From NCBI GenBank assembly GCA_037039925.1, contig JAXRKP010000082.1, forward strand, positions 72,501 through 136,500: DNA of 64,000 nucleotides. The letters run 5' to 3'. Positions 57,220 through 63,972 of the stretch are shown piece by piece. The translations under genes were made by a program, and so were the position numbers. Position 1 is the stretch's first letter. Every line of letters begins with the position of its first letter. The notes beneath the pieces were generated by a model. It was not told the origin of the DNA, ran no database searches, and worked only from the letters and a program-made list of their open reading frames with translations. Origin of the DNA: Doris montereyensis (taxonomy: Eukaryota; Mollusca; Gastropoda; Nudibranchia; Dorididae).

Positions 57220-57770
57220 TGGCGGCCCAGCCATCCTCAGGTTATGGGCCCAGGAACATCACCTTCAATGGTGATGAGAGATTAGTTATCCATGAGGATA
57301 TTTTATGTCCCGTCGACAATGACGATTGACGTTCAGAGAATCGATCTCCCAGCTGCTTGTTCCCTCTCTTTAATATTAAGTGCATCATTACGAATCCACG
57401 GTGAAAAGGCAAGAGTACAATGAGGCATCGCTTGTTAACCATCCAGATGAGTCAATCACCCTTCTGAGCAGAACGGAATCATCGGCTCTCAAGCAAGCTG
57501 AGAAATAAAACTCTTTTGCTATGGTGTTGAAAGGATCTAAGAATATACCATTTATTACACTGACAACTCAATGAGAGAAATCAGTCGTTCAGGGAATTCA
57601 AAGAAAGTCTTTCGAAATCAAGAGGAGAACGTTCAACTTCAAAGTCTTCCTCGACTTACAAACGCCCGTTACACCGGTACCAAAGTCACACAACACCAAA
57701 CAAATTCAACCATGATCGAAAGTGAAAAACGCAATTAGATTTCAAGATTCTTGAATGGATTGTCCGGAAT
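57220..57770 (+). pseudogene. Coding-like fragments of unknown gene(s)
   Basis: An ATG at 57220 opens MAAQPSSGYGPRNITFNGDE and closes after 36 codons. At about 57418 the frame reads YNEASLVNHPDESITLLSRT. At about 57589 a Ser/Arg/Lys-rich stretch reads SFREFKESLSKSRGERSTSK. These are protein-like but out of register with each other, as if joined from pieces. They precede the shrunken copies of the long-TIR element. I recognise no family with confidence. Confidence 0.35.
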
Positions 57771-58190
57771 TATAGAAAAATCGATGCAGAAATAAAACTC
57801 TTTTGCAGTTGACACATATGATTTCAAAAGAAGCGGGCAAGCAATTGTTACTTTAAAAAAAAAACCAACATGTATCCATGAAGTGAATGTAGGGTCGGCA
57901 TAAGGAGATGGTGAATGCCAAAATATTTTAATACGAGGGTTCAGAGAAAACCTGATTTAGCTCCCCCCTTCCATAAACGGAAATCAATTGAGAAAAAAAT
58001 ACAGATGATCGATAATTATATTTATACACCAAATGAACTGAAAACATCTTTCACTGATGCCTTTTCCAGCGGCTAGGCTTGAATAGACATATCATATACA
58101 TAAAAAAACTTCCACGAGTGAGCTTCACACTAGTCATACCCAAATTGGCTTATTTAGACTCGAGGTTGAAATGAAGAACAGCATAGGACT

Positions 58191-58238
<48 letters not shown>

Positions 58239-59050
58239 AGGGGGTGCCACTATACACCAACAACACATAGATGTATCATCAAGGCGAATCCAAAGATCGT
58301 TCTCATTCATGTTAATTACTAAAAATTCCATTTACTTTCCCGTCTTTGAATAGATATTTATACACCGAAATCCGAAAGTGAAAAAACATGTAATTCTAAA
58401 CAAAATAAAGGCAAAAAAATGTCATTTTTCCTACAGAATGAATTGAAAACATCTTCCATCTGGCCTTTTTAGAGACGGCAGTATGTTCAAGCCTATAGAG
58501 AAAGGTATTGCTAGTTGAATGCCAGATGGACGGAGGGTCAATCTTTCCTTACTACTCACATTATCAACATGGCCCTAAACATAGTTGTTTTCGCCTACAT
58601 GAATGCTCCACTACTGGACACCAGGAATTAGACTTTGTTTGATCTTTGACAGTTATGAAATCCGTGCAACAACCAAAGCGCCAAAAGAGACCGTTACACA
58701 CCACATCCAGTTGTTATTCTAACACAAATCGCTAAATGACGTCTTGAGAAAATCGTTAGTTGTCGATGCGGACACAATTATTATAAGAAAGACATTGCAG
58801 TTTGCAACAAATTTACAGATTTATAGGTGATATGTGCAGATGCATCCTGTTTGCACACAAACACAACGTCTTGTCTTCTTCCAGGCCTTCTATTAGAGAC
58901 GGCCTTGCTAGCAATCCAAAAAAGATCTTGATAATTGGATAGTGTCCCGACAAATTTACAGATTTATTGACATGCTCCGGCCCACGTGAAATCTGTCATA
59001 GATTTCAAGATTGCAGCATACATTGTCATTGCAGCGGATTGCTTCCGAAC
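57765..59050 (+). pseudogene. Shrunken, collinear copy of the 59.05-62.7 kb region
   Basis: Segments of 20-60 bases matching the later region appear in the same order, separated by deletions. Examples: 'gaacagca' plus GA array plus 'actatacaccaacaacacat' (58175-58275, like 60400-60580); 'gtatgttcaagcctatagag' (58482, like 61142); 'tactcacattatcaacatgg' (58553, like 61521); 'ggacaccaggaattagactt' (58617, like 61689); 'gatgcggacacaattatt' (58766, like 61939); 'gcagcatacattgtcattgc' (59015, like 62643). No ORF survives. Confidence 0.85.
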
Positions 59051-59759
59051 TATAGAAATAAAATTTGCATCGTTACCTGACACGGCATGGATTTAAAATA
59101 GAGCTAAGTGGATACGAGTTACTTTATGATAACATGTATCCATAGTGAAGTGTTTGTGGGTCGGCATATGAAGTTAGAACCTCTGATTTAGTTTTTTGGC
59201 CATAAGAAAAGGAATGCCACTGCCAAATATTTTTTAATACGAGGGTTCAGAGAAATTCGATCCCCAATATTTGATTAAAGTGCATCATCCATTTTTTAAA
59301 CGTTAAAAAAGAGTGAGGCAGGCAATTGACTATCCCCTTCTGGAAAAAACGGAAATCAATTGAGAAAAAAATACGGGAGTAGGAGGAGGGTCAAAGAACA
59401 AGTTGAGATCTTCCCGGAGTTGGTTTAATGGGTGTGCTGATAACTTCACCGAAAAATTACTAAAATTACTTAGGATAGATAGATCTCGAGAGCTAGATCT
59501 AGATCTATGCATTATTCCGAAGGAACTATGAACTAAAATTTGGACCCAAAGGTTAACAGGAAAATATATTCACCAAGCTGTAGATAATTATATTTATGTG
59601 AACTGAAAACATCTTTTCACGATGCCTTTTCCAGCGGCGAGTTTAACATGGTGGAGTTGCCAGATGAGACGACTGCATGAATTTCAAATAAAATTATTCT
59701 CATCGATCGTCTTGAGTTGTCAGTTGTAGGGCATGCCATAATAGCTGCTCTCTCTCTGG

Positions 59760-59990
59760 CAATTAGAAGCTCTCTCTAAGGAACTCTCTCTCTCTCTCTC
59801 TCTCTCTCTATGATCTTCTATATTTCTCTCTCTCTCTCTCTCATTTTTTTCTCTCTCTCTCTCTCTCTCTGATTCTCTCTCAATTTTCTCTCTCTACTCA
59901 GCCACACACCCTCCTCCTCTCCACACAGCTCTCCTTTCTTCTTCTGGGGACTCTCTAGTCCAGAGGCTCTTCAACAAAAGGGTCTCTTTC
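59760..59990. repeat. Interrupted (CT)n arrays
   Basis: Several short CT runs with T-rich interruptions. Confidence 0.85.
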
Positions 59991-60491
59991 TCTCTCTGAA
60001 AAATCTCTCGAGTTTTTCTTTCTCCTCTCATGGCCATCTGAGATAGAAGGCCGATATATCATATACATTAAAAGAAATGCTCATTTATATAACCCAATCG
60101 CCGATACAGTTACAATGTATTTGTATTTGGAATGTTAAGTGCACACGATATGCTACAATTAAAGTAGAACTACATGCAAGCTGACAACTGATAGCGATAA
60201 TAAAATTGGTTATCAAATATCAGTTTATGTTCCCACGAGTGGCGTTCACTGTTCACTCAGTGAGGTTGCAGACAGACACTCAGTCATACCATTATGATTG
60301 ACCCGGTTTCAGGGCGGCCAAAGAGAATGCCTACGACTAGATCTAGCTGGCTTATCCGTTGAAACCTAGGAGACAGGGGCCTAGACTCGAGGTTGAAAAT
60401 GAAGAACAGCACGTGTCAGTTCAAACGATGATAGTGATAGCTCTAGTAGTAAAGACGTCACGGAGAATGCATATTTAAAAGCACACCCGAT

Positions 60492-60496
<5 letters not shown>

Positions 60497-60541
<45 letters not shown>

Positions 60542-60553
60542 GGGGGGGGGGGC
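60497..60553. repeat. (GA)n followed by G-run
   Basis: About 42 bases of GA then G(12). A homologous, shorter array is at 58193-58245 in the shrunken copy. Confidence 0.95.
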
Positions 60554-60651
60554 TACTATACACCAACAACACATAGATGTATCAATCATCAGTCATAATA
60601 TCTAATAACCGTACTTGGTATCACTCGGGGTGTAACATTTTTAACATGCTA

Positions 60652-61079
60652 AACTTGTTCTTTAGGGTGTTTAGTATTACCAAAAAAAATCAACCAAAAT
60701 CGACCATGGGGAACATGTAATTTAAACAAAATAAAGGTAAAAAAAGTCATTTTTCAAATTCGTAAAAAAATAGTTTTGTTTGTACAGAATCAAAGAGATA
60801 GTCAAATGAAACACAAAAATGCTTTTATTTTTAAAATTGACCAAATAGTTATCATTTTATTAGCATTTTAAAATTTCAAAAGGTCAAGGTCATTGTCAAG
60901 GTCATCTTGAAAAATAGCTCAAATATTGCCGTGTTTGGTATCAAATTAAACGTCTTGACAAGACAAACACAAATTTTATGTTGTTTATGCAATTTACTGA
61001 CATTTAGGTGACCTATGGCGGTAAAATACTATTGAGATAATAAAAAATATGCCTTTTTAAAGAAAAAAAAGATATGGTC
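60652..61079 (+). repeat. Left inverted arm (~428 bp)
   Basis: It contains 'gtgtttagtattaccaaaa', 'cagaatcaaagagatagtca', 'aggtcattgtcaaggtcatc' and 'atggcggtaaaatactattg', all found inverted in the right arm. Confidence 0.93.
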
Positions 61080-62705
61080 GGGCTTATCGAAGCCGCGACA
61101 CCGATGACCTGAGGAAGTTTGTGTCATTTCTGGAGGCCCACAGTATGTTCAAGCCTATAGAGAAAGGTATTATTATTAATATTGCTACAGGTGTAGTCGC
61201 CGATAGTAGGGTCAACGTTGATGATGCACTTATGATTGGCTGGAAAGTACATGCTAAAATAACTGGTATGTGCTATGGCAAGGTTTCCATTTTAAAAAAA
61301 GTGACCAAGCTGTGACATTCAAGGTGATGCGTAAACCCGTGCGAATCCTGAACGACAACATCTTTATGTCATCTTCTGAGATGTACCAGCGACTGCTTTC
61401 CATGGTTTGCGTCCGTGGTCCCCTTGAATCTTCTGTGTTCAAGTATGAGCTAGCACCTGTGGCTCCTGCCTTATTTCATGACGACGGGAGTATGAGGAAA
61501 ACAGACAAATCTTTCCTTGCTACTCACATTATCAACATGGCCCCAAACATTGTTGTAGACGACGTCAACGAGAAACCTCATTTTCTAGTGTATGATGGCG
61601 CCTACATGCTTCATCGCCTAAGCTGGCCAAAGGTTGGAACAGTGGAAACACTATGTCAGCAATTCGTCAACTGTTTGCTCCACAACTGGACACCAGGAAT
61701 TAGACTTTGTTTGGTCTTTGACAGTTATGAAACTGTAACAACCAAAGCGCCTGAACAAAAGAGAAGAAAGACTGTATACACACCACATCCAGTTGTTCAT
61801 CTTGATTATAACACAAATCTGCTAAATGACAAAGAGTCGTTCCTTGCCAATCTTCAGAACAAGCAAGCCTTGGTGCGACTGTTAGGGTCTTCAGCAGAAG
61901 AATCTGGCATTTGTGTTGTTCATGCCGAAGAAGAAGGGGATGCGGACACAATTATTGTAAGAAAGACATTGCAGTTTGCAACTGAAGGTTTACCTGTGGT
62001 TGTTATGGCTAATGATACAGATATACTGGTAATGCTTCTGTACCATGTAAGCAAGGACATGGAAGTCTACATGAAATGTAATAATGTCCAAATGATTTCA
62101 ATTCAAGCAGCCAAAATGGCCATAGGTGAGGAAATGTGCAGCTGCATCCTGTTTGCACATGCCGTGTCAGGATGTGACACAACGTCTGCTGTCTTCGGCA
62201 TGGGTAAGCTGAAGGCTTTCAAGCTGTTGCAGAAGTTAGCTATTTTTGGGCAAACAGATACAAATAAAAAGGACATCACCAAAACAGGAGTCGAATTCCT
62301 GTCATTCCTCTACTGCAGTGGACCACAAAACCTGAGCCTTACTGATCTTCGATATCAGCAGTTTATCTCCCAAAATACGTGCCACTTGAACGGATGGCTC
62401 CAACAGAGAGAGCCGCACAATTCCATGCCCTTAGAGTGCACCACCAGGTTAGTACATGGCTAAATCTGCGCACAGTCCTTGACTTAGTTGACTATGGCTT
62501 TACTGTGAGTGACAACATTGTGAGCTCAGTGATAACTGACAATGCTCCGGCCCCAGATGAACTGCTACGTGAAATCCGCTGTTCATGTAAGAGCAGTACT
62601 CCACTATGCAAATCTTGCACTTGCTGCAAGTACAACATCCCTTGCAGCATACATTGTCATTGCAGCGGACAGTGTGAAAATGCTTCACAAACGGATACAG
62701 TATAA
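61055..62705 (+). CDS. FEN1/PIN-like nuclease-like protein with CXC-type tail (two frame slips)
   Basis: Three consecutive frames form one protein of about 545 codons: 61055-61302 (RDTDDLRKFVSFLEAHSMF ... IATGVVADSRVNVDDAL), 61303-62367 (AVTFKVMRKPVRILN ...) and 62368-62705 (PLERMAPTERAAQFHALRVH ... C-terminus). The changes fall in an A7 run and an A4 run. Acidic blocks in order: HFLVYDGAYML, LCLVFDSYE, AEEEGDADTIIV, VMANDTDILVMLL and SGCDTTSAVFGMGKLKAF. Their order and spacing resemble the FEN1/XPG PIN fold (EAEA, DxD, GCDY + helix-turn-helix GxGxxxA), an inference from motifs. The end has about 11 Cys in CxC/CxxxxC spacing (CSCKSSTPLCKSCTCCKYN), like tesmin/CXC repeats. No start Met precedes the first block; the frame opens at a stop inside the left arm, so the 5' end may be truncated. 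Similar hypothetical proteins are, as I recall, common in mollusc and cnidarian proteomes. Confidence 0.78.
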
Positions 62706-63085
62706 ATTAATTTGCCCCACCAAATACAATTGAAAGCAGTCAGAACTTGAATTGTTTGACGGTAAAATAACGGTGAATACCTCATTAGTAGTTTTGATTG
62801 TGGACACTTTTGTTTCATGCAAATTTTATTGTTTTTCGTGGTTGATTATTTATGTTTGCCTTTGAACTTTTTGGTTATTTGGATATGAGCATAACTGTGG
62901 TTAGGAATGGGGGGGGGGGGGGGGGGGGGGTCCACATCTGAAATCAGGAAAAGAGCTTATTTCGACCTAATTTTACTCTTTTTACTAATCTTCCAAAGTT
63001 TACAATTGAATTTTGATGAAATTTGGCATAAACATGTCAAGGCAGCATGTTATGTCAGAACCCTGATTTATTTTCGTGTTTTTGT

Positions 63086-63523
63086 GTGACCATATTTTTT
63101 TCTTTAAAAAAGGCATATTTTTTATTATCTCAATAGTATTTTTACCGCCATAGGTCATCTAAATGTCAGTAAATTGCATAAACAACATAAATTCTGTGTT
63201 TGTCTTGTCAAGACGTTTAATTTGATACCAAACACGGCAATATTTGAACTATTTTTCAAGATGACCTTGACAATGACCATGACCTTTTGAAATTTTTAAA
63301 CGCTAATAAAATGATAACTATTTGGTCAATTTTAAAAAATAAAAGCATTTTTGTGTTTCATTTGACTATCTCTTTGATTCTGTACAAACAAAAATATTTT
63401 TTACGAATTTGAAAAATGACCTTTTTAAAAAAAAATCTTTATTTTGTTTAAATTACATGTTCCCCGTGGTCGATTTTGGTTGAATTTTTTTTGGTAATAC
63501 TAAACACTCCTAAAGAACAAGTT
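63086..63523 (-). repeat. Right inverted arm (~438 bp)
   Basis: The inverted counterpart of 60652-61079, with small differences mainly in A/T runs. Confidence 0.93.
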
Positions 63524-63882
63524 GACACAAAAATTTGGTTGTTATCTTTGCCTGTTGAAAAGTGGAACACATTCCAAGAGACTGGCCATAGCAATCTGGG
63601 TTTTTGAAAAGCACTTCACAAACAAAATATGTTTGAATATAAAATTAACTCAGGCAATAATACTAATACCAAAAAGTGTCTATAACTTTTGGAAAAAGCG
63701 CAGGAAGTAGACATTAATATCATTGTTACCACATTCTTAAGTTTTCCCTCCACTCTGACCCAATAATTTGTTGAAACTATGTTTTAATTATCTTTTTTTT
63801 TCATAGCTGCCTGTTTATAAAATACATGATGTGCTAAACTAGCGTACCAGATAGATGTGCAGAAGAGACAAAAGAGTCAAAA

Positions 63883-63885
<3 letters not shown>

Positions 63886-63972
<87 letters not shown>

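Follow-up and report, generated by a model that had tools for sequence, protein, structure and literature searches.

Does a pair of long inverted arms around a single gene for a flap endonuclease-like protein represent a new class of mobile element? The question is raised by a 64,000-nucleotide stretch of the genome of the nudibranch Doris montereyensis (GCA_037039925.1, contig JAXRKP010000082.1, positions 72,501 to 136,500 of the forward strand; hereafter the window). A preliminary description, made from the letters alone, noted such a structure at window positions 60652–63523 and suggested that its FEN1-like protein could be the mobility enzyme or an accessory of a new class. Our analysis shows that the structure belongs to a non-autonomous family of DNA transposons, as a copy that is both truncated and pseudogenised. 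Very probably it is a decayed copy of an internally deleted family of AcademX type that spread in trans, the likeness to Academ being one of description only. What appeared to be a new element class is therefore a dead derivative of a lineage that has most likely been described already.

We searched the genome (513 Mb, 3,500 contigs) for copies of the element and found dozens of them, with at least 136 matching stretches, the best 40 of 105 candidates being scored. Thirty-eight loci (L009–L046) were fetched with their flanks. The interior of the window element is covered to at least 92% in 13 of them and to at least 38% in 22 (the 13 included), while 10 hold a smaller part and 6 none. The fetched loci repeat the same arrangement with deletions; the arms enclose the same contents or less, never unrelated ones, and one fragment (L041) has interior pieces but no arm. 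Interior divergence from the window copy is about 4–5%, except for the near-identical L010 (0.4–0.8%). Separately, a 132-bp interior piece of the element is repeated in tandem at L023:2280-2534.

The true ends of the element are preserved in other copies, where the terminus reads TAGGCCAGTAAAA. The terminal inverted repeat is complete in L018, with 494 bp, and has at least 43 matches in the genome (best 40 of 62 candidates scored). Both true ends are kept in 10 loci, and in 8 of these the element is flanked by exact direct repeats of 3 bp (L018 TAT, L021 TTA, L022 AGA, L023 CTA, L033 AAA, L037 TAA) or 4 bp (L039 AACA, L011 GGCA). By comparison, flanks taken from different rows agree over at least 3 bp in 6 of 182 cases. 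The count started from 14 computed end pairs, all of which enter this null. Six pairs (the second rows of L021 and L022, L024, L036 and both rows of L038) were dropped because one of their ends was no terminus but an internal or chance match, and L011 and L009, whose mutated right ends had been missed by the strict rule, were added, the former with its 4-bp duplication and the latter with none. Dispersed copies with target duplications at their true ends bear out the proposal that the structure is a mobile element. Three short elements (L039, 712 bp; L037, 736 bp; L033, 920 bp) have no coding part at all, which indicates that the ends move without it.

The two ends of the element are unlike each other, as illustrated by L018:957-1016. 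The terminus at the 3' side of the gene bears a small palindrome, CGACAT-GAAA-ATGTCG, that is missing from the 5' terminus. In loci that keep 25% or more of the interior, the palindrome is present in 14 of 14 3' termini and in 0 of 9 5' termini; this count includes L009, where a form one base shorter had been scored as absent by the script, and leaves aside a further L011 row that was a chance match. The orientation is reversed in three loci of low coverage (L028, L033 and L037). As single-stranded DNA the stem has a modest predicted stability (−5.4 kcal/mol, z −1.96).

The window copy itself has lost both ends. Its arms (60652–61079 and 63088–63523) are identical in 412 of 440 alignment columns with gaps scored as differences, or 94.2% over 430 columns by BLAST. 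The long inverted arms seen earlier are thus real, and the right one extends past 63523 to about 63547. Against the complete L018 repeat, the outer 70 bp are gone on the left and the outer 47 bp on the right, so that there is no target duplication to look for at this copy. Between the arms lies a single coding remnant, as had been noted, but it is not an intact gene. Aligned to the metagenome protein P0001 (640 aa), it falls into three frames with gapless joins (61088-61303, residues 89-159; 61291-62370, residues 156-522; 62370-62687, residues 523-628), implying two frameshifts. As described, the border of the arm is where the frame opens; there is, however, no start codon at that point, an in-frame TAA stands inside the left arm at 61058–61060, and the first in-frame ATG comes only at 61145. 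The frame consequently looks like an internal part of a longer gene, which most simply was cut at the border.

Other copies are disrupted at other places. The positions of frameshifts vary among the 21 loci looked at, and several copies, including that in the window, share one near P0001 residues 148–161, which in the window is close to a run of A. Two copies are more open: L010 holds residues 160-628 (469 residues) in one frame with no stop in the aligned part, and L021 holds residues 89-523 in one frame with one stop. Selection on the protein would be expected to leave an excess of differences at third codon positions. None is seen: differences from the window copy amount to 522/9,900 at the first, 436/9,901 at the second and 377/9,849 at the third position, compared with 1,095/16,312 in the arms and 409/8,338 in the 3' non-coding stretch. 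With the codon positions diverging alike, there is no sign of selection, and the remnant appears to be carried along as an unselected passenger.

The nature of the encoded protein had been guessed correctly. The motifs quoted earlier (EEEGDAD, NDTD and GCDTT..FGMGK) are found in the open reading frames of the window, which hold the acidic motifs of a FEN1-like nuclease, and the predicted structure of a relative, P0014, has the FEN1/EXO1 fold, a model that we count among the established points. The seven nuclease acids D726, D769, E871, D874, D896, D898 and D955 (P0085 numbering) are invariant in all 33 long relatives. Compared with FEN1, EXO1 and XPG, which are host DNA repair enzymes, identity in structural alignment is only about 15%, and the nuclease here is the middle part of a transposon protein, preceded by a transposase-type region and followed by a CXC tail. 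The CXC-like tail, too, withstood scrutiny, LIN-54 being matched in profile searches at E 0.016 and 0.0054. It has its Cys-rich character in common with Tesmin/TSO1-like CXC domains such as that of LIN-54, although the window piece falls far short of the Pfam TCR cut-off (E 0.58; 10.9 vs 23.5 bits).

The idea that the nuclease drives a class of its own finds no support once longer relatives are considered. A protein search with P0034 yielded 103 relatives from metagenomes and from named animals such as Nematostella, Branchiostoma, Diabrotica and Pinctada, the longest having about 1,600 aa. The longest consist of a DUF6589/DDE-type region followed by the FEN1/EXO1-like nuclease and the CXC tail. 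Upstream of the nuclease acids, D35, D38, D222, D477 and E481 (P0085 numbering) are invariant in the 33 long members. DUF6589 is matched at E ≤0.01 in 7 of the 33, and at up to 1.7e-12 (P0142) and 4.9e-12 (P0090) in six members chosen for carrying that label. In the structure model of P0085 (1,160 aa; mean predicted local distance difference test score 85), D35 and D38 lie in a strand, D222 directly follows one and E481 is part of a helix, an order that we read as that of a DDE transposase. The fold search with P0085 placed FEN1/XRN-type rows on top; Argonaute rows (E 0.06-0.5, probability 0.06-0.21) were not used.

The transposase part is what the Doris family lacks, and its absence also speaks against a new class. 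The window remnant begins at P0001 residue 89, well past E26, the counterpart of the last transposase acid. With nine family proteins as tblastn queries, the transposase part is absent inside the element in all 38 fetched loci and appears only in L044, outside the element. In the genome protein search (best 55 of 185 candidates), places of the window family begin no earlier than about P0014 residue 269-275, and at least 14 other places extend further towards the N-terminus. Four of these 14 were fetched; they lack the arm sequence, and nothing convincing was found in them for the region of the first catalytic acid. Two candidates for a complete element were rejected. In L009 (C1230), with about 6.9 kb between its arms, tblastn put the extra 3.7 kb or so inside the nuclease part, and no transposase match was obtained; the segment L009:3100-6840 is other DNA inserted there. 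In L044/L048 (C2168), the transposase-type pieces lie about 600 bp beyond the arm terminus and belong to a neighbour, a relative's remnant at L048:1046-3143 that includes the N-terminal part and the region of the first catalytic acid.

AcademX is reportedly a lineage of the Academ superfamily, and its nuclease is XPG-like. The encoded nuclease together with duplications of 3–4 bp fits this lineage. In the available text of PMC10045372, the length of the target duplication is given as 9 or 10 bp for AcademH and as 3 or 4 bp for AcademX, a difference tied to the encoded helicase and nuclease; the longest exact duplication among our 10 loci is 4 bp. Terminal inverted repeats are a further feature in common with AcademX, as may be the putative DDE-type region of the long relatives; the window family differs from AcademX in being non-autonomous, without the transposase part. 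KolobokP and other Kolobok elements with accessory nucleases are DDD/E transposons that likewise carry a nuclease, and KolobokP has long terminal repeats. According to the accessible part of PMC9587614, however, Kolobok duplicates TTAA, a sequence not among the duplications found here, and KolobokP, with duplications of 3-5 bp, combines direct repeats with a His-Me nuclease, in contrast to the inverted repeats and FEN1-like nuclease of the window family. No relevant paper tying XPG to Academ or to a DDE transposase, or DUF6589 to transposition, was found in the literature searched.

These results lead us to the following scenario. The parent would have been an autonomous element of Academ type, whose repeats of about 0.5 kb enclosed a transposase-nuclease-CXC gene and whose catalysis was presumably of DDE type. 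A deletion would then have removed everything between the inner edge of its left repeat and a position past the last catalytic acid of the transposase. The remaining short form, which measures about 2.9 kb in L011, would have kept both ends and would have been cut and pasted in trans by the transposase of another copy recognising the TAGGCCAGTAAAA ends, each insertion leaving a target duplication of 3–4 bp. As for the nuclease of the full-length protein, our best guess is that it would process flaps or strand ends when the element is excised or joined or when the DNA is repaired.

Several observations weigh against this interpretation. No copy combining the window arms with the missing transposase part was found in searches of the genome and of the fetched loci, which makes the parent element hypothetical. 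DUF6589 goes unmatched at E 0.01 in 26 of the 33 long relatives, P0085 included. The Foldseek matches of P0085 are weaker (best E 6.2e-3, FEN-1), and no transposase fold is among those listed by VIA-align, where one domain filled the list. The EXO1 sequence match drops to E 0.2 with the wider profile A4. Two of the 10 loci with true ends, L009 and L019, lack a 3-bp duplication, and the match to AcademX was made with its description and not with Academ sequences.

The missing parent, together with the lack of window arms in the four fetched longer relatives, would also suit a different history, in which an unrelated transposon with long terminal inverted repeats picked up the 3' part of an Academ-type gene and carried it along as it multiplied, the arms then coming from another superfamily. 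We consider this unlikely. Arms are expected to differ between families of one superfamily, the duplication length agrees with that given for AcademX in the available text, and the kept piece runs from the inner end of one repeat and continues with its own 3' flank to the other, as after a simple internal deletion. Somewhat less likely still is that elements with a DDE region, a FEN1-like nuclease and a CXC tail form their own superfamily apart from Academ. The Academ likeness does rest on few defining features, but nuclease and duplications of 3 or 4 bp match AcademX as outlined in PMC10045372, and Academ is reported to be abundant in bivalves in the accessible text of PMC10294476. We regard as improbable that the family owes its spread to an action in trans of its short nuclease-CXC protein, which would have assisted or repressed the full-length transposase; in that case the nuclease module would be a separately amplified regulator of its parent. 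Hardest to believe is a new class of autonomous elements with long terminal inverted repeats in which the nuclease-CXC gene alone serves mobility or regulation, since the many copies with arms around the same gene piece and the long open frames of L010 and L021 are outweighed by the absent third-position excess, the frame opening without a start codon, the transposase-type region upstream in long relatives and the copies of 712–920 bp that moved without any coding part.

The original observation was sound. What it brought to light is an ordinary non-autonomous element, now decayed, from a transposon lineage that is most likely AcademX. What it contributes is the anatomy of the lineage, with its ends, its duplication length and a protein of about 1,600 aa in which a DDE-type region is followed by a FEN1/EXO1-like nuclease and then by a CXC tail. 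The nuclease has been suggested to set the short duplication length (available text of PMC10045372).

Another family with the same kind of protein is present in the genome at L060:2269-6006 and L062:858-4796. It has degenerate inverted repeats of about 230 bp starting with GGAAATTT, and its gene also seems to be without the first part of the transposase region. No relative was found in viral contigs, phage records or prokaryote contigs. A family member of 1,467 aa, P0077, is filed under a Sedimenticola metagenome-assembled genome and is probably host DNA in a bacterial bin.

Table 1. Features of the element copy and its upstream duplicate in the window
Feature	Position	Strand	Basis
Left terminal inverted repeat without its outermost 70 bp	60652..61079	+	alignment to right arm and L018 repeat
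Gene remnant, frame 1 (P0001 89-159), without start codon at border	61076..61303	+	
Gene remnant, frame 2 (P0001 156-522), FEN1/EXO1-like nuclease: VYDG, FDSY, EEEGDAD, NDTD, GCDTT	61291..62370	+	fold taken from relative P0014
Gene remnant, frame 3 (P0001 523-628), nuclease end and Cys-rich CXC-like tail; stop TAA 62703-62705	62370..62705	+	
3' non-coding stretch, gene to right repeat	62706..63087	+	
Right terminal inverted repeat without its outermost 47 bp; pairing with the left arm reaches 63523	63088..63547	-	
Gapped second copy: arm piece and short gene pieces in the same order, in degraded tandem duplication of flank plus element	58385..59038	+	

An Rfam scan returned nothing reaching the gathering score. 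The tandem duplication listed in Table 1 relates window positions 57736-59038 to 59226-62669, the upstream duplicate consisting of short collinear pieces of left flank, arm and gene with many small deletions between them. Long AT, AG and CT microsatellites surround the element (63883-63971, 60500-60538, 58193-58231 and 59779-59894).
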